Source: Fennellomyces sp. T-0311 | Lineage: Eukaryota; Mucoromycota; Mucoromycetes; Mucorales; Lichtheimiaceae | Assembly (NCBI GenBank): GCA_025266875.1 | Contig: JALLLT010000005.1 | Coordinates: 1,240,001-1,304,000, forward strand | Length of the DNA: 64,000 nt | Direction of reading: 5' to 3' | Shown: positions 38,235 to 49,835 of the stretch, piece by piece | Layout: the number at the start of each line of letters is the position of its first letter | Position numbering within the stretch: position 1 is the first letter of the stretch | The notes under the pieces: generated by a model | Told to the model about the DNA's origin: nothing | The model's input: only the letters and a program-made list of their open reading frames with translations | The model's database searches: none | Program-made: the position numbers and the translations under genes

Positions 38235-38243
38235 CCATTTTAT
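38235..38243 (+). repeat. 9-bp target-site duplication, left copy
   Basis: CCATTTTAT immediately precedes the left terminal inverted repeat. An identical copy at 45450-45458 immediately follows the right one. A 9-bp duplication is the hallmark of Mutator-like elements. Confidence 0.95.
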
Positions 38244-38346
38244 GGGTTTTACCTCGCGCACACCAAATTTTTACCTCGCGCACACCAAACCACCCAGTCA
38301 CTTTAGTAAAATGTGCTGAGAATAGAAATCACCTTGCGCACACCAA
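38244..38346 (+). repeat. Left terminal inverted repeat of the MULE
   Basis: 103 bp identical to the reverse complement of 45347-45449. It begins GGGTTTTACC and holds two direct copies of CCTCGCGCACACCAAA near the tip and a third related copy at its inner edge. With further subterminal units these are probable transposase binding sites. Confidence 0.95.
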
Positions 38347-38475
38347 CTCACCTTGCGTACACCAACTCACCTCGCGCACACCAAATCACCTTGCACACAC
38401 CAAATCATCTCAAGCACACCAAATCACCTCGCGTACACATCAGATACATTTCGCATACCGAATATCTGATACACA
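38325..38475 (+). repeat. Subterminal repeat array at the left MULE end
   Basis: Units of about 19 bp close to CACCTTGCGCACACCAACT follow one another: three well-conserved (CACCTTGCGCACACCAACT, CACCTTGCGTACACCAACT, CACCTCGCGCACACCAAAT), then more degenerate ones to about 38475. The right end has only two such inner units, so the ends are asymmetric. Confidence 0.85.
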
Positions 38476-38677
38476 TCAGATACGCTGGAATGTAAAGCAC
38501 CTTATTGTCACTATGCGAGTATGACCTTAATTCGCTTTCGTATGTAGTACGGTGGTAAATATATGTGACGACAAGATATGTAAGATAATTATACGCTTCA
38601 GGGTAGAGTTGATTAGGATTTTTAACTAACACATGCGAAGTCAATGATTAACTTCGCAAACTCAGGTAATACAACAC

Positions 38678-41511
38678 TTACTCGATTTCATAGAAATACT
38701 GTTCACAAACAGCTTTCTCTCTGTGAAGGTACTTCCATGTTGCTTTATAGTGCCCTGGTATTTTCAAATCATCCCACGCTTTCTCGTGATATAGTGGAAC
38801 TGATGGCCATTTGATTGTGATAGCTGGGCGCATCGTAATCGAGTAGTAATGGTTGTTGACCAAATGTAGAATTATCGGTTGGGGCTTTGTTTTATCCTCC
38901 AAAGGCGTCAGTGGCAAGTACAATTTAGGAGTATGCTGGAAAGGAGTTCCTGTGGCGAAGAAGGCGATCGGTGTACCTAGCGCATCTGCTGCTACTTGTC
39001 CCATGGTGCTTGCATCAAACCAGAAGCTTATTGGGCAAGATGATGTTCGCTTATGGGCAGTGTCTGGCGTGACGCCATACTCAAGCACTGACAGAAGCCG
39101 CTGGTATTCGTCTTCGGAATTCATACAGACATATTTTCGGTAAACATCTGCATTACCTATGACGAGAGTGAGCATTGCTTCCTTGATCTCAATATAGCGA
39201 TCTTCGTCTTTAAAGTACTGCGCAGCAAGTGCGCGCCATCCACACCAACCATCACCGCGTACTGTGATGGTGGCCGATACTGCATGTCGTGGTATGCTGC
39301 TATGTACCCAGCTGAAGCAATAAGTAGGAACATGTTAAAGCTCGCTAGCAGGTATCACATTTTTCGTACTTACTATGGCACAGAAGTTGCTATTTCTTTT
39401 CTGTAGTTTCGCTTCTTTGGCCAGAGCTCTTCGACATCAGCTTCATCGCCTCTTCTCCGTTTCTTTTCGACGCCTGATGCAGTATACCCTCGATCGGCCT
39501 TGCTTTCCTGCACTTGTCCGATCTCCTTCTTTTCTTTCTCAAGAAGCTTTCGCTTCTCTTGTTGCTCGGAGACCTCAAATGCCGATGGTAGTCTTGCATT
39601 TTTAGTGCCCTTCGGTCTACCTTTGGTGACAGTGTGGACGGGATAGCGCAAGTCATCTACATCGATTGGCGTGAAAGTCTCGAGTGTGCACTTGAGAGCT
39701 GCAATTAGATCTGCACGCTGCTGGCTATCACTTAAGCTCTTGTAGAGCATTGTAATGGAGTGCATGCTTTCAGCAAACTCTGTATCTACCGCTTCTTCAA
39801 CAGCGTCAGAAAGCGGCAAAACGTCAACATTTTCTGTAAAGATCGGTAAGTAGAGCCAAAAATATGTTACGAGCTACTCGATATAAGTACCTGTTCTTGA
39901 TTTTAATAGCCATCTGGTACCAATACAGCTTAAAGAGATAGCTTGAGATCGATCTGCTGGAAGGGTGTGCTGGCATGGTAGAGAATAGTTAACGTTCCAT
40001 GTACAATCGCAACCTTCCTCGAGAGCTTTTTTCCGATCATCTTCGTCTAGTGCCCAGCTCTTATAAAGCTCTGCCTTTATACGGTGGATTGCAAAATGGC
40101 AAACGGAGCCTTGTAGTGGCTGGAGAGCCTTACGCATGTCGTTGTCAAGGTAGCCGTCTTCAGCTTTAAATGGTAAGAAGCTGAGGAGCTCCTTGTTGTA
40201 AATGTACTCCTCGGAAAAGTCCTTGGTTTTTTTTAAAAGCAATGTTAGCAGCAAAGTCATAAAGATACTACGCGACATCATACATTTTTTGTCAAATATA
40301 TGTGAATTCCCTTGAAGAGTTTGAGTAATCGACCAGGTGTACTCAGCACTTGTTTAATTCCCCAGTGTGCACCTTCAATTCGCTGCGTAGTACGGGCACC
40401 AAGGTGGACATGTTTTTCTGTCCATGCACCGGCCCAACGGTCTTTATAAGCTTCCATGCTATTTTCATTTATATGTATTAAATTCATTGGTGCGCAAAAT
40501 ACTGTTTGTTATTTACCCGTCGATATACTTGGTTAACTCTTTGAACCTTTTGTTTCCGATAATCAACCTTCTGAACGTAGCAATAGCGTCATCGAAATCT
40601 TGAGTGGAACGTCCCCATATCATGTTATCGACGGCACCAAGGATCTCTACATAGTTTTCGGAATCGCGTGTAAAGCCCTTGGAGAGATGGGTTTCAAAGT
40701 TTTTTTTAATGTGCCATGCACATAACGTATGAGGAGTGTCCGGGTACACTGCACGTAGAGCTGCACCTAGAGCCTTGTCATCGTCAGTGACAAAGATGCC
40801 TGGGTTGATCGCGCCATTATCGAAAACGACAGACTTTAGCTGTCTCAGCAACCATTCGTAGGACGCCTCTTTTTCGTTTGAAATTAAGACCGAACCAATG
40901 TAAAATGATCGAAGCGACTTGGACGATTGGTTGGACGCGAGGTTATCGATACCGACAATGTTGACCAAAGGCATTTTGTTCGTCACAGTTTCGTAGGTCG
41001 CATCGAGAACAATGACCTCACTAAACCGTCTGGCCCGCTCAATACTTTTCTTGTGCGTCACAAAAAGCTTGTCGATCGTATCTTCGGTTTTGCTGTAACG
41101 CAATAGATACCCATGGCTTTTAAGATAGTCATGAAGAGTACGTGCTTCAGACTGCTTCATCGCTCGTGCCACCTCTTCCCTGATTTTATACACATCTTTG
41201 GGTATCTGTGTCTGCTCACCATTCGCTCCGGCCGTTTGGCGCAAGATCTGAGCAGGTGTGAGCATGTTTTCAGACATTTCGATAATCTCAGCCCTTTTCT
41301 CTGGATCATCGTTCCGGTATTCGTGGTAGACCAGCTTACTGGTCGCCATAGGATGGGAATGCTCAGAACATTTAAGGGTTGCCCTCCAAAGACCGTCGGA
41401 TTTCTTTTGGGATGCATAAACTAGCCAGGGACAGCCGATTTTCTTAGAGGGACGAATGGGGTTCTTTTTCACAACTCCATTGCTGCACTTATGAGACCCT
41501 TCTTTGACACC
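38678..41511 (-). CDS. MULE transposase with SWIM, AT-hook and OTU-like domains
   Basis: Exons 41511-40517, 40458-40284, 40221-39891, 39833-39374 and 39311-38678 form 864 codons in one frame. The order is as follows. The second half of a FAR1-like zinc finger (KIGCPWLVYASQKKSDGLW, KCSEHSHPM) comes first. The MULE DDE domain follows, with catalytic aspartates in VIVLDATYE and GIFVTDDDKALGAAL and the C-x2-H of TLCAWHIKKNF. Next is a SWIM zinc finger (CDCTWNVNYSLPCQH), then an AT-hook (KGRPKGTKN) and a basic stretch. An OTU-like cysteine peptidase region ends it, with GDGWCGWRALAAQYF supplying the Asp/Cys and LVNNHYYSI the His. The 5' end is unclear: an in-frame stop lies just before 41511. The missing FAR1 half is found at 45287-45039, suggesting a 3.5-kb intron. 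Confidence 0.9.
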
Positions 41512-41526
41512 CTACATTATGTAGGG
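41510..41526. repeat. 17-bp palindrome at the inner boundary of the transposase gene
   Basis: CCCTACAT-T-ATGTAGGG has perfect 8-bp arms around one central base. It overlaps the proposed acceptor of the large transposase intron, next to the DNA block carrying the tyrosine recombinase gene. Confidence 0.8.
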
Positions 41527-42047
41527 CATATAAAGCGGACTTCCTGTGCGTCCTGGACGCGAGTCCTCAGCCACGAGCGGACCTGAATCCCGTATGCATC
41601 TTTCCAAATTGGGCACATAACCCGCGCGGTAGCGCAGAAGCTTTTGACAGATCGTAATCGCTGAAGCAACTTTCATAATAAAAATTATAGTATCAGTCTA
41701 AAAAATTGAATGATAGTAAATAAAAATATACAACATTCTATTTAAAAAAGCGCGTCGAACATATGACGGAAAAGAGTGTACAAAAATGATGCAAAGGAAG
41801 GCTGGGTGAGGCGCTGAGCTGCGCCGCAGGCCGCAGTAATTTAATACTTCTTTGAATGAGTGAGGCTGATTTAAGGCGTATCAATGCGAAGAAGGACTTG
41901 ATGAGCCTGCTGAGCCTGCGGAGGGATGAGGTCTTCTAGGAGGCTGAGCCTTATGCTGGGAAAGGGGAAGATATATAAGCTAGCTTTCTGTAAGGGCTCG
42001 ATAATCACAATTCATCTATTCTGCGTACACGCCTTGTATCATCTACC

Positions 42048-44508
42048 ATGCCTAAACAACAACACGAATACGTATCTGCTTTATACAACCTCAATCCCTC
42101 GCCATCTGAGGAGCCTGTTGAAGACCAGACTAGCAGCCAACCGGCCCATAGACCTGGTCCTCGTAATGTCGCTGAAATGAACCTGGCCATGCAACAATCA
42201 AGACAGCGTACGCAAGCCACGACGCAGGCGCTTCGTCCCAATTCCACCAAGCTTGCATACTATCCAAAAATGAGTGAGTTTTGTTCATGGTGCGACACAA
42301 AGCCCTTCCAAGTCACTACTCGTTATCAAGTCAACGGCGACAAACTGCACCTATTTCTGGAAGAATATGTAAGTACAGAAGCAGATGTATATGAACTTTT
42401 CGCTCATATATTATATACTCTTCTACGTATACAGGTCCTTACGAGGCTCCGTCGATCTACGCACGAAAAGCAATCGGAAGGTGTTACCAACGAAGACCCA
42501 AGTGGTGAAGCGGATACTGACGACCCAGAACTGGCCGCTGACCGAGAGAACGTACTCGGCTTTAGCTCCATCGAACAGTACGTTAGTGCGATCACCAAGC
42601 TCTTTCACGACCAATGTAGCAACAACACGAACACTGTGACCAACCATCCGCGAATTCCAGACGTCAAGTCACTGCTTAAAAACTCCAAGAAAAAGCAAGC
42701 CAAGAGACGCAAAACAAACTATGAAGACCGTGCTGCCGGGTCCATTTTGGATGGGTACTCAACAATGGAAGAATTGACTAGAGTCATCGATTACTTTCTG
42801 GTGAAGGACAAGCCCGAGCACTATCGCAATGCAGTCATGATGCTTGTGTCGCACTTTGCGCTCATGCGTGGCGACAATGTTCGAGAGCTCGAGTTTGCCG
42901 ACATCCACACGATTCCCCTCCAAGGAGAAGGACCTACGCCTGATATCCAATGCCCTTGTTTGGTTCTGCTTTTGTTTCATGGAAAGACAAATCAGTTTGG
43001 TAAAGTCGAGCACGGATCAGCCATTCGATGTGCACAGGTTGAAACTTGTCTTTGGATGGCACTCGGTCTTTACTTTTTCTACCGCTGGCACGTTCGCAAG
43101 GAAGACTTTCCCAAAATGATGGAGCGTGAAGACTGGTTCGATATCAAGCTGTGCAGTAGCGAGAGCCGTGATTCTGTCGACCTCACCCAAAGTATGACGC
43201 CAGCTGCTCATTCCAGAGCTTTCAAGAAGGCGTTCAACGAGTGCAATATCAGATCAACATCTATTACGCACGCAGGTAGAAAGTCGGGTGCAAAAATGGC
43301 TGATCTGGGCGAGGCCGGTGATTCTGCGATTCGACGAGCTGGGCGGTGGACAAACGATGCGATGGAAGGATCATATCTGACAAACCTACCACGGCGTCTG
43401 TTGCGAGCTATGGCAAAGTTTGATCCCAACGGAAAGACTTTCTGGTTGCCCCGTGATACCGTCCAACCCCCCGAGTCATTGCAGCAAAAAGTTTTCCCTT
43501 GGATTGAGGAGCGACAAGAGAGAATTAACCAAGGCCAAGGTGATGGGAGTGTTGCCGCCGATGGGTTCCTGAAGATGTTACGTGCTTTACGTATAACATT
43601 CTTGCAGGATTCCGTGCCGATGAGGAAACGCCACCCGCACTTATCTATTTGGAAAGCAGACATCTTCAGAGATCCAAGTTACCTGGATTTTGCAGCGTAA
43701 GTATAATACCAGTTGTAGAAGATATACATACTTACTAAGTATCTTTTGAACTTCCAGTAACCTCGAAAGATCCATTGACGATTCCCCACCACCAGAGGAT
43801 CTCACCCTGTCTAGAGCAATGCCGCACTTGCATACGTACCTTCAACAGATGTACGCGGATATATCTCAACGACTGAATCGCATTACGGAGTCGCTCGAAG
43901 AGCATACGCAAGTGTTCAACCAGTTCATGGGTGACCTTGCAAATGGACGTCTCACGATCTCGGTGCAATGGACACCATCCACTTCTACTCCTGCCACTAC
44001 TTCGGCCTCCTTTCCTCCTGCCACAACGCCACTTACTTCCACTACTGCCTCTGCTTCGACGTCCTTTCCTCCTGCTTCCACGGCACCGTTCACTTCCACT
44101 GCTGCTGCTGCTTCGTCCTTTGTCGACACCTCTTCCACCCCCCAGCCACCATTCTACAGAATAAGCGACGGCGTGAAGACTGTACAGGATCTTTGGCGTG
44201 AATATCACGACGGTTTGTCCGGTCATCCTGCTATCAAGGACCTGGAACTTCAGTGGGGTACTGCGTGGCGAAAGGATCAAATGAAGAAGTTCAGCCGGAG
44301 AAAGCGCGTTGTCGACGGGATCAAAGCATTCATCGAGCACCACGGCTTGCAGCAACAGGAACCAGCTAATGTGTTGGATATGGTTGAGTACTGGCGCACG
44401 CACCCAAAGGCTGAGTGGTGCCACCGTGGGCTGATTAAGGAGAAATCCTTGAACTGGATGGGTGACAATAAAGAGACATGGCAAAATGTAGAGATGCCTC
44501 CTCTTTAA
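42048..44508 (+). CDS. Crypton-type tyrosine recombinase with GCR1_C-like DNA-binding tail
   Basis: Exons 42048-42368, 42435-43696 and 43758-44508 give 777 aa. The first intron (66 nt) is stop-free and in phase, so a 799-aa form is also possible. The catalytic core has the features of Crypton/Ndc10-like tyrosine recombinases. These are the first Arg in LMRGDNVRELEFADI, then CLVLLLFHGKTNQFG, the H-x-x-R box in THAGRKSGAKMADL, GRW, and the nucleophile candidate Tyr in GSYLTNLPRRLL. A Thr/Ser/Pro-rich linker leads to a C-terminal GCR1_C-like domain (SDGVKTVQDLWREYHDG, then RKRVVDGIKAFIEHHG). All four key residues appear intact. A TATATAAG box lies about 75 bp before the start. It sits inside the MULE, opposite to the transposase. 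Confidence 0.85.
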
Positions 44509-45038
44509 AAATATTTTTCGCATCGTTCTCGTTCATATAATAATAAAAAAAGCACTTTTTGGCATATACTACAAACACAATATGAAGTTCACTCAATACA
44601 TTCAATGAATGACAGGATAAATTAGATGGATCCTTCCTTACGATGGCCATCCCAAGATGGATCGATCAAGCTCTTCCTCAAATGCATAAAAAATATAAGC
44701 GTGTCTAGCCAGTAAAATTGCACAGGACTTGGGGACAAAATATGCACATATTAACCCTGGCTCAGGGTTTTACGCAGCCATAATGACCCAATTTTTTCAA
44801 GACCCGCTGGACTTGGCGGGACTTGCCAGGACTTGTGGGATTGATAAGTAATAGTAAGTAACAAAAGTCACGTTGACTTGTATACATAATATAGTATAAT
44901 AAATATGTCAACCTCCTCGAGCACTTCTGTATCGTCATTACATGCTGTATCGCCAATTTTGTTTTCACCGCCATTCTACAGACACAGATTCACATATAAA
45001 TGGGCGGCTTTATAGATATCTTTATTTTTCGTAACTAC
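44509..45038. other. Internal MULE sequence 3' of the recombinase gene
   Basis: A/T-rich, with an inexact GGACTTGGCGGGACTTGCCAGGACTTGT repetition at about 44809-44836. A minus-strand ORF (44974-44762) has no recognised family and was not called. Confidence 0.4.
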
Positions 45039-45287
45039 CATTTTCTTGACTTCATACGATTCTTTCTCATCATTCCCGGCTCCCAACTGTTTTTTAGTGC
45101 GGTGACCACGAGCCTCACCACCATGACCACAAATAAAATTCGTTTTCACCGTGCCTTGGTTAGGGTTCATGTTGCTTGCACCAATTTTTACAGTAAAGCC
45201 TCCCTCTTTAGCCACTGCCTTAAGGTCCGCGTAAAGTTGCTCCCGGTTCAAGTAAGTTTTTTTGGTAATGGACTCCATTAATGACAT
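45039..45287 (-). CDS. Probable first coding exon of the MULE transposase (FAR1-like half)
   Basis: The minus-strand frame MSLMESITKKTYLNREQLYA ... GGFTVKIGASNMNPNQ ... TNFICGHGGEARGHR has the layout of the N-terminal FAR1-like domain of MULE transposases. It lacks the second half (the GCPW...HSHP part). That second half is exactly what begins the frame at 41511. Taking 45038 (GTAGTT) as donor and the ATGTAG before 41511 as acceptor keeps the frame and yields a 947-aa transposase with a complete FAR1 domain. The intervening 3,527 bp would then hold the recombinase gene on the other strand. If not spliced this way, the ORF runs on to 44976 as a 103-aa protein. Confidence 0.6.
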
Positions 45288-45346
45288 TTTGATCTGATGA
45301 TCTTAAGCAAAAAACTTTTGACTGAATTTGGTGTGCGCAAGGTGAT

Positions 45347-45449
45347 TTGGTGTGCGCAAGGTGATTTCTATTCTCAGCACATTTTACTAAAGTGACTGGG
45401 TGGTTTGGTGTGCGCGAGGTAAAAATTTGGTGTGCGCGAGGTAAAACCC
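45347..45449 (-). repeat. Right terminal inverted repeat of the MULE
   Basis: Perfect reverse complement of 38244-38346. Two further inner units of the 19-bp subterminal motif lie just inside (about 45326-45365). Confidence 0.95.
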
Positions 45450-45458
45450 CCATTTTAT
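45450..45458 (+). repeat. 9-bp target-site duplication, right copy
   Basis: CCATTTTAT, identical to the left copy at 38235-38243. Confidence 0.95.
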
Positions 45459-47970: not shown

Positions 47971-48194
47971 TTAAAGTTTATGGCTTGGTAGCAAATGTTA
48001 CACTTTGCTGTACAAGAGAAGGGAGCCTATATAGCTTTTTCTTTTTCTCTGCACTTTTTTTGGCTGCTCTCTACTTCACCGCCCGCAACGAAGCATCATC
48101 AGCTACGGTATAGTAACATAGTATACATCGCAGTAAAGTTTAACCAGCGTATAATTACACGCACAGATAGATTGTCCAAGACATTATTCCCAAA
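47971..48194. promoter_or_regulatory. Shared intergenic promoter region of F-box/LRR and HET genes
   Basis: The 224 bp between two divergent start codons must carry both promoters. It contains a pyrimidine-rich stretch (48030-48062). No specific factor site is claimed. Confidence 0.5.
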
Positions 48195-49835
48195 ATGTAC
48201 ATCGAGTATCATACTCCACAGCTTGTGACAAACCGTCTCCATCCCAGCGTTTGGACAAAATCAAAACGAGCTGGGGGGATATACAGACCTACATGGCTTA
48301 TTCGAGCATCCGATTGGCAAAAGGTCCCTGGCACCGAAGCGAAAAACGGATATTGTACTCTATCGTATTGCTGGGAGCAATCAGGTGAAATTGTCACAGC
48401 CGAGAACGGCGACTCCGTCTGTGTTGATGAGCCACACCACCAAATTACGTACCAAATGGCGTTTCCGCCTTTGATGTGGTTTACAGGAAAACCGAAAACA
48501 TTAGGCACAAAGAAAGTGACTTTTGAAGGTGTTCTTCAGCAAATTTGCAAGGATCATAAAATTGACTATCTGTGGTACGACAAAGTATGCATCGACCAGA
48601 CAAACAAAGAAGAGAAGCGACGCGAAATCAAGCAAATGCATCTTATCTACAGCAGCGCACGCTTTACGGTTGTTTTTATTCCGGAATTTGCCATAACCAC
48701 GTTCCAAAGTACTTTCTTATGGCCGATAACTGGACGAACCAGCCCAGCAGAAGTGAAGTGCTTTGAACGAATATATAGTTCATTGTGGTTCACGCGCAGC
48801 TGGACCCTTGAGGAATTGATGATGTCAACAGATATTTTGGTAGTTGGTCAAAATGCGTATACGTGGTACCTCAGAACTCGAGACCACGCAACTATATTTT
48901 TGAAGCAGTGTGATTACTTTACAACCCACATGCTTGGATACAAGGACCAAAATGTGAAAAGCGCGAGCCAGATTCTTTATTACGCGCATTCACGGACAAG
49001 TAGCAAAGAGCACGACAAGATATTTTCACTGGCAAATATTCTCAGCGACGTAGTATCCATCGATATGGATTACGATATCGACATTGTAACAATGGCTCAC
49101 GGATTTTATCGACGACTGGTCCAACGGGATCTTTCTATAATGTGTTTTGGTATGCGGTCGGTTTCGGACGAACAAGGCATAAAAACCCTGCCTATATCGC
49201 CCGCCACATTCAGCTCTTATGATCTTCCTTCATGGACAGGTGTTGCCGGACTGCATTCCCCGTATCCCGTAGCCGAAATTACACTGGACCAATACCAGAC
49301 ATATCATATGGACGATCATTCGCACTTGCACATCACCTGCCGGTTCCATAGTATTCGCCTCAAGCGATACGATGACCCTCTTTACAGCTACTTTGGCGAC
49401 AAGCGCAAAGAACGAGCACGTGGCAACAAGGCGAAGTCTCTCCAAGGTTTGAGTCAATGGCGAATGCTTGTTTTTGCAGGCTTTTACGCTACACATTATT
49501 GGAAAACCGACCAACCAACTTTTACTTCTCCCATTTTGCCACTTTCGCTGACCGAAGATTGCGAAGAGTGTATTATTCCAGCAATGCTATTCGACATCGC
49601 AGGGTTTACTAGATATTATGTTGATCCTTTCGGTTTTAAAACAAATACTGGTTTCTGTCACGCCTACATGTTGCCGGTTTTGAAGAAATCGACCAGCAGC
49701 CAACTCTACAAAGTTGTTGGTTCTATTTTACTCAAGATCTACCGTCGCAAGGAAACCCCCGAACACCCTCATGAATTTCTAGATCGTTTATTTACCCCTC
49801 TTTGTGCTGAACCCAAAGAGTTTATCATCGAATAA
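48195..49835 (+). CDS. HET-domain (heterokaryon incompatibility) protein
   Basis: A single-exon gene of 546 aa. The HET domain shows its three usual blocks: YCTLSYCWE near residue 55, LWYDKVCIDQTNKEEKRREI near residues 126-145, and RSWTLEELMMS near residue 203. In Ascomycota HET proteins trigger cell death on fusion of incompatible hyphae. In Mucoromycota the domain is present but the function is untested. The frame is intact, and the conservation of blocks in the relic at 3215-4531 supports it as a real gene. The C-terminal half has no recognised domain. Confidence 0.9.
   Translation: MYIEYHTPQLVTNRLHPSVWTKSKRAGGIYRPTWLIRASDWQKVPGTEAKNGYCTLSYCWEQSGEIVTAENGDSVCVDEPHHQITYQMAFPPLMWFTGKPKTLGTKKVTFEGVLQQICKDHKIDYLWYDKVCIDQTNKEEKRREIKQMHLIYSSARFTVVFIPEFAITTFQSTFLWPITGRTSPAEVKCFERIYSSLWFTRSWTLEELMMSTDILVVGQNAYTWYLRTRDHATIFLKQCDYFTTHMLGYKDQNVKSASQILYYAHSRTSSKEHDKIFSLANILSDVVSIDMDYDIDIVTMAHGFYRRLVQRDLSIMCFGMRSVSDEQGIKTLPISPATFSSYDLPSWTGVAGLHSPYPVAEITLDQYQTYHMDDHSHLHITCRFHSIRLKRYDDPLYSYFGDKRKERARGNKAKSLQGLSQWRMLVFAGFYATHYWKTDQPTFTSPILPLSLTEDCEECIIPAMLFDIAGFTRYYVDPFGFKTNTGFCHAYMLPVLKKSTSSQLYKVVGSILLKIYRRKETPEHPHEFLDRLFTPLCAEPKEFIIE

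Follow-up and report, generated by a model that had tools for sequence, protein, structure and literature searches.

The 64-kb window (the whole stretch of DNA analyzed here, part of contig C128 in a genome of 45.6 Mb and 182 contigs) contains a complete Mutator-like element (MULE) of 7206 bp at 38244 to 45449. Its ends are 122-nt terminal inverted repeats (TIRs; 38244 to 38365 and 45328 to 45449, both given on the plus strand) that are 98% complementary, and the 9-bp target-site duplication CCATTTTAT is read directly on the left (38235 to 38243) and on the right (45450 to 45458); the MULE ends, the single outer duplication, and the 7.2-kb length noted in an earlier sequence-only reading are thus real. 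The MULE is coded on the minus strand, with an accessory open reading frame (ORF) of 218 aa (38678 to 39334) that has a weak Peptidase_C65/OTU likeness (Pfam E 0.12, below the cut-off) and a GDGWCGWRA motif, which we take to resemble OTU/C65 proteases; a second ORF (39874 to 40353) from the ORF list that has no Pfam match; and the transposase main exon (40513 to 41511), with a MULE domain at E 1.4e-22 in Pfam. A likely first coding exon of the transposase lies at 45039 to 45287 (in ORF 44976 to 45302), separated from the main exon by a putative intron (41512 to 45038) that would be about 200 bp long without the Crypton described below. The intron was placed from sequence and reading frames, with its donor picked by eye, guided by how long a related MULE protein is; the match of that protein to the first exon falls short of significance (E 0.083).

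Within the putative intron, on the plus strand, lies a Crypton recombinase gene (42048 to 44508), in which two short introns (42369 to 42434 and 43697 to 43757) are recognized by eye from splice motifs; joining the exons would give a 777-aa protein. Pfam matches identify an NDC10_II recombinase domain in the frame starting at 42048 (E 8.5e-47) and a GCR1_C DNA-binding tail in the ORF at 43750 to 44508 (E 2.3e-19). The frame itself contains the catalytic Arg I (LMRGDN, 42867 to 42869, plus strand), the H-x-x-R box (HAGR, 43269 to 43280, plus strand), the tryptophan of GRW, and a candidate nucleophile Tyr (GSYLTNLP, 43374 to 43376, plus strand). These residues were compared across 14 recombinase frames, comprising that of the window and 13 from other places in the genome, hand-picked from NDC10_II matches and L024. 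K, H, W, and Y are present in all 14, the HxxR arginine in 13, and the first arginine in 12. Alignment A1 holds 10 of the 14 frames, with L047, L049, L050, and L051 excluded (three of which carry the substitutions), and R104, K143, H238, R241, W264, and Y273, which we take to be the positions of the tyrosine-recombinase signature, are invariant in it (n = 10). NDC10_II is found in 10/10 A1 members and Phage_integrase weakly in 3/10 (best E 0.024), and a PDB search with the A1 profile finds Ndc10 at E 2.8e-12. The same profile matches Cre at E about 0.7 across the HxxR-box stretch, but this is a hint only, because an unrelated ferritin scores equally well (E 0.82). A single-sequence structure prediction of the recombinase gave a pLDDT of 35, and the patterns of the recombinase gave no match in viral contigs. 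As judged from its sequence, the window recombinase is an intact CryptonF-type tyrosine recombinase that has kept its catalytic residues. The sequence-only reading had called a Crypton-type tyrosine recombinase from an Arg box, H-x-x-R, GRW, a Tyr candidate, and a GCR1_C-like tail; all of these are present, and the two Pfam domains together with the expected catalytic residues support the call.

Fungal Cryptons (CryptonF) reportedly go back to Goodwin et al. in 2003. According to Kojima and Jurka 2011 (PMC3212892), they combine a tyrosine recombinase and GCR1_C with 6-bp terminal direct repeats and no long terminal repeats, and the window element is the same in each of these respects. It is a 3327-bp unit, GTAGGGCAT...GATTGATAA (41521 to 44847, plus strand), recognized as the segment common to other loci and to a tandem pair. 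Its terminal direct repeats, TATGTA and TAAGTA, are of the short kind expected for CryptonF (4 to 6 bp) and alike at five of six bases. It has no TIRs or long direct repeats: apart from one 10-bp match (E 8.4), no self-match begins within the unit's first 120 bp. When the window MULE was compared with 19 fetched stretches, some of them overlapping, the matches corresponded to 41518 to 44850 (+/- 6 bp) or to parts of it, and the rest of the MULE gave no match of ≥40 bp in those 19 stretches. The ends are constant within the window's Crypton family (left, GTAGGGCATAT...; right, ...TTGATAA). Six full units were compared: the window copy, L010a (of a pair on C135), and L011 (on C99) have no differences over 3327 bases, and relative to the window copy the other three carry 1, 31, and 52 differences; on this comparison the family is recently active. 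Searching the genome with the recombinase gene gave 24 matches, fragments included, and NDC10_II is found at 74 places, which merge into 66 loci. The presence of about 66 recombinase loci in this one 45.6-Mb genome sets it apart from the general CryptonF description; Cryptons are described as being of very low copy number in most hosts (PMC3212892), they had already been reported from Rhizopus oryzae (PMC3212892, PMC2699053), and they make up 0.42% of the R. oryzae genome (PMC2699053).

On contig C135 (100399 to 107059; L010), two units of the window's Crypton are arranged head to tail with a spacing of 3327 and differ from each other at one base. The junction between them reads GATTGATAAGTAGGGCAT, with the core TAAGTA. 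Such a junction would be predicted by a circular form of the element, or by integration into an existing right end, and is not proof of a circle. The tandem junction also bears on whether the recombinase could be a domesticated Ndc10/Gcr1-like host gene that was captured by the MULE, an idea encouraged by the naming of NDC10_II and GCR1_C after host genes. The retained catalytic residues and the junction both argue against it, and the many mobile copies with their precise ends rule it out, such that we give this origin virtually no credence.

The relationship between the two elements is revealed by other copies of the MULE. Siblings were found by searching with both MULE halves, and their number is a lower bound; in all nine that span the Crypton site (all fetched) TATGTA is intact and the Crypton is absent. 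Because the nine siblings are empty, the nesting is a single event in the assembly (1 of 10 spanning copies found), and because the Crypton is a separate element with identical copies elsewhere, the arrangement is a simple nested insertion. The sequence-only reading had offered two explanations, of which a Crypton jumping into a MULE is the one borne out, by the empty siblings and the separate identical Crypton copies; it had also proposed that MULE copies with a clean empty site at about 41.5 to 45 kb would show simple nesting, and such copies are what we find (9/9). On the transposase strand, about 6 bp separate the Crypton from the downstream AG acceptor of the main exon, and in the Crypton-free MULE every frame that could connect the main exon with the N-terminal ORF meets a stop. 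Since no stop-free frame joins the ORFs, the insertion site is most likely within the intron of about 200 bp. The window MULE shares its transposase domain, 122-bp TIRs, and 9-bp target duplication with Mutator-like elements, but a Crypton splits it within a likely intron, at a point where its siblings are uninterrupted. Our main reading, to which we assign a probability of roughly 95%, is that a recently active CryptonF element of 3327 bp integrated at TATGTA in the likely intron of the MULE transposase gene, with exchange presumably at the GT shared by both partners.

The other proposals of the sequence-only reading, that the two systems move together as a single unit and that MULEs of this lineage have adopted a second enzyme, do not survive these comparisons: the spanning siblings lack the Crypton (9/9), and identical Cryptons occur elsewhere without this MULE. 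The idea of a stable composite, in which a MULE lineage took up the Crypton recombinase for joint movement, does have a precedent in MarCry-1_FO, a Crypton-mariner composite of Fusarium oxysporum of which four copies with mariner ends are analyzed in the 2011 paper (PMC3212892). MarCry-1_FO resembles the window element in placing a Crypton within a TIR transposon that has its own DDE transposase, but there are four copies with a mariner in one case, and one copy with a MULE and empty siblings in the other. That the 7.2-kb unit is intact and has just one duplication outside it would also suit a composite, as would the further MULEs of this genome that hold or adjoin Cryptons; however, a host/Crypton junction tested on C161 is likewise single-copy, and several copies sharing both enzymes at one place, which a stable composite should provide, were not found among the siblings. 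We consider a stable composite highly improbable. Under simple nesting, the MULE would move by its own transposase, with the Crypton as a passenger in any future MULE jump; there is no sign among the copies found in this genome of a jump that carried the Crypton along. The Crypton-MULE pair, therefore, combines familiar parts in a familiar type of arrangement and is in itself ordinary, and the interest of the locus rests on the map of Crypton integration rather than on the pairing.

Ten of the 66 Crypton loci have a MULE-domain match no more than 8 kb away (150 matches scored, of 196 candidates), and of these the window, two loci on C161, and those on C120, C157, and C108 were inspected, with C130, C138, C25, and C98 left out. 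On C161 (53478 to 65504; L053, L055/L056), a different Crypton with a unit of 3167 bp forms a head-to-tail pair between 375-bp inverted repeats that are 98% alike, in a 12-kb MULE-like element with a MULE domain; a 9-bp duplication was looked for outside these inverted repeats and none was seen. At this site the C117 sibling is empty and the C96 sibling (77%) also looks empty; the core CTATGTATAT gives no exchange position because it is identical in target and element. On C28, the Crypton of locus L013 adjoins an N-terminal portion of a different MULE transposase (E 8e-15 in BLASTP against the window MULE); the counterpart sites on C98, C172, and C152, which lie about 1.2 kb from MULE domains, are empty. 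From their sequences, the C161 and C28 cases are events separate from that of the window, in other MULEs with empty siblings and, at C161, with another Crypton. C120 was rejected as a nesting, as its 96-nt inverted repeats (L052, 5866 to 5961 and 9167 to 9262) exclude the recombinase match, and so was C157, where the Crypton lies outside the MULE ends; inverted repeats of >24 nt were sought in 9 kb at C108 and none were found.

These neighbors raise the question as to whether Cryptons actively prefer MULEs, through target motif, chromatin, or introns, as opposed to landing by chance and surviving there. Three nestings are in or beside MULEs (window, C28, and C161), and five more sites (L011, L013, L014, L015, and L019) are in sequence that recurs in the genome. 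However, the hosts include a Tc1/mariner-like element, another Crypton, and three unassigned repeat families (L011, L014, and L019), and only 10/66 loci are within 8 kb of a scored MULE-domain match. Apart from the window, five of these neighbors were inspected: both C161 loci are nested, neither C120 nor C157 is, and at C108 long inverted repeats are lacking; moreover, this 3.9-kb MULE alone offers 18 TAYGT sequences. As survival of insertions in repeats accounts for the pattern, an active preference for MULEs seems unlikely to us.

Because several other insertions also lie in repeats, their targets can be read from siblings. The target is TATGTA for the window (9/9 siblings), TATGTT for L011 (4/4 fetched siblings, of 6 spanning), TATGTA for L013 (3/3 siblings, of 3), TATGTC for L014 (3/3 fetched, of 5), TACGTA for L019 (4/4 fetched, of 5), and TATGTG for L020 (4/4 fetched, of 5); L020 counts for the right end only, because its left flank differs from the sibling repeats. 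For L012, also right end only, the target is TACGTA within another Crypton copy, and for L015/L016 on C151 two of three fetched siblings have CATGTA and the third CATGCA, the filled left end being TATGTA. L010, whose flanks match only themselves, the truncated or rearranged L017, L018, L021, and L022, and the 65 to 67% relatives L023 to L027 were excluded from this set of junctions. TAYGT is present at 7/8 known targets, against a background of 0.23% of window positions with both strands counted. A preference of Cryptons for splice sites, suggested by the resemblance of TATGT and TAAGT to 5' splice donors, was considered and rejected: by eye, the bases ahead of the sites do not look like a donor, and the MULE of the window runs on the opposite strand.

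Comparison of filled and empty sites reveals how the bases of the two partners are distributed. At all eight known-target sites the right end carries the Crypton's TAA, where the third base of the target is T or C, and a target base other than A at position 6 is found again at the right end (T, C, and G; 3/3). The left end has A in spite of a non-A sixth target base at both sites with both ends resolved: L011 (target TATGTT) and L014 (target TATGTC) have TATGTA on the left, and TAAGTT and TAAGTC, respectively, on the right. At L019 (TACGTA), the C of the target is retained at the left end. This pattern of inheritance places the exchange between positions 3 and 6, where both partners have GT, and 19/19 informative end bases at positions 3 and 6 fit this model; by hand arithmetic, and assuming independence, the chance of 19/19 under independent random repair is (1/2)^19, about 2e-6. 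Inclusion of the L015 first base at both ends gives 20/21, and the misfit (T as opposed to C in the siblings) may be copy variation or an exception. In the window, the left core TATGTA (41518 to 41523, plus strand) would accordingly be target at positions 1 to 3 and Crypton in GTA, and the right core TAAGTA (44845 to 44850, plus strand) would be Crypton in TAA and target in GTA. These filled/empty pairs differ from the CryptonF description in that element and target share only part of the 6-bp repeat, with exchange at GT.

A plausible route is that the recombinase excises the Crypton as a circle with the core TAAGTA, and that the circle joins a target TAYGTN with exchange at the shared GT. The products would be a left end of TAYGTA and a right end of TAAGTN; run in reverse, the reaction would regenerate the target. 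A six-base heteroduplex overlap predicts that either end should receive a complete core from one parent, yet TATGTA, the left end of L011 and of L014, matches neither the target nor TAAGTA; the classical tyrosine-recombinase overlap of 6 to 8 bp therefore does not explain these junctions simply. We tentatively suggest, at somewhat less than even odds, that there is no such classical overlap, and that either strands switch at the central GT (≤2 bases) or one strand pair is exchanged, with replication completing the process. If true, half of the "6-bp direct repeat" at each end would come from the target and half from the element.

A circular intermediate of Cryptons is addressed in Kojima and Jurka 2011 (PMC3212892), and a proposed circular form of Starships had not been shown, according to a 2025 paper (PMC12506042). 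The Starship captains (for example, that of Sanctuary) in the same paper are fungal tyrosine recombinases with short direct repeats, like the enzyme and element here, and the 3' repeat may move along with the element (PMC12506042); Starships are set apart by description, being giant cargo elements as opposed to 3.3 kb with one gene. A search of open-licence literature for Starship crossovers found nothing, and the listed titles and abstract openings of that literature contained neither a Crypton in a MULE nor a base-level Crypton crossover map, which is weak evidence of novelty. The value of the present set is that filled and empty sites from the same genome and the same young Crypton family fix both ends and predict the circle junction, and a TAAGTA circle with a TAYGTN target would be a ready substrate pair for studying integration of eukaryotic tyrosine-recombinase transposons.

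Several of the sites have features of their own. At L020 (C122:158546), the right flank matches the siblings and the left does not, which suggests a rearrangement at the Crypton, and at L012 (C35) the Crypton has apparently inserted in reverse into the TACGTA of another Crypton copy, with part missing. The host at L015/L016 is a Tc1/mariner-like transposase frame, an echo of MarCry, with an HTH_Tnp_Tc3_2 match at E 0.048 (below the cut-off) and a frame end, IIFIDEAGFNM, that we take to be a Tc1/mariner-like transposase motif. Adjoining the MULE in the window, a 554-aa open frame (48171 to 49835) contains a HET (heterokaryon incompatibility) domain (E 5.2e-17).
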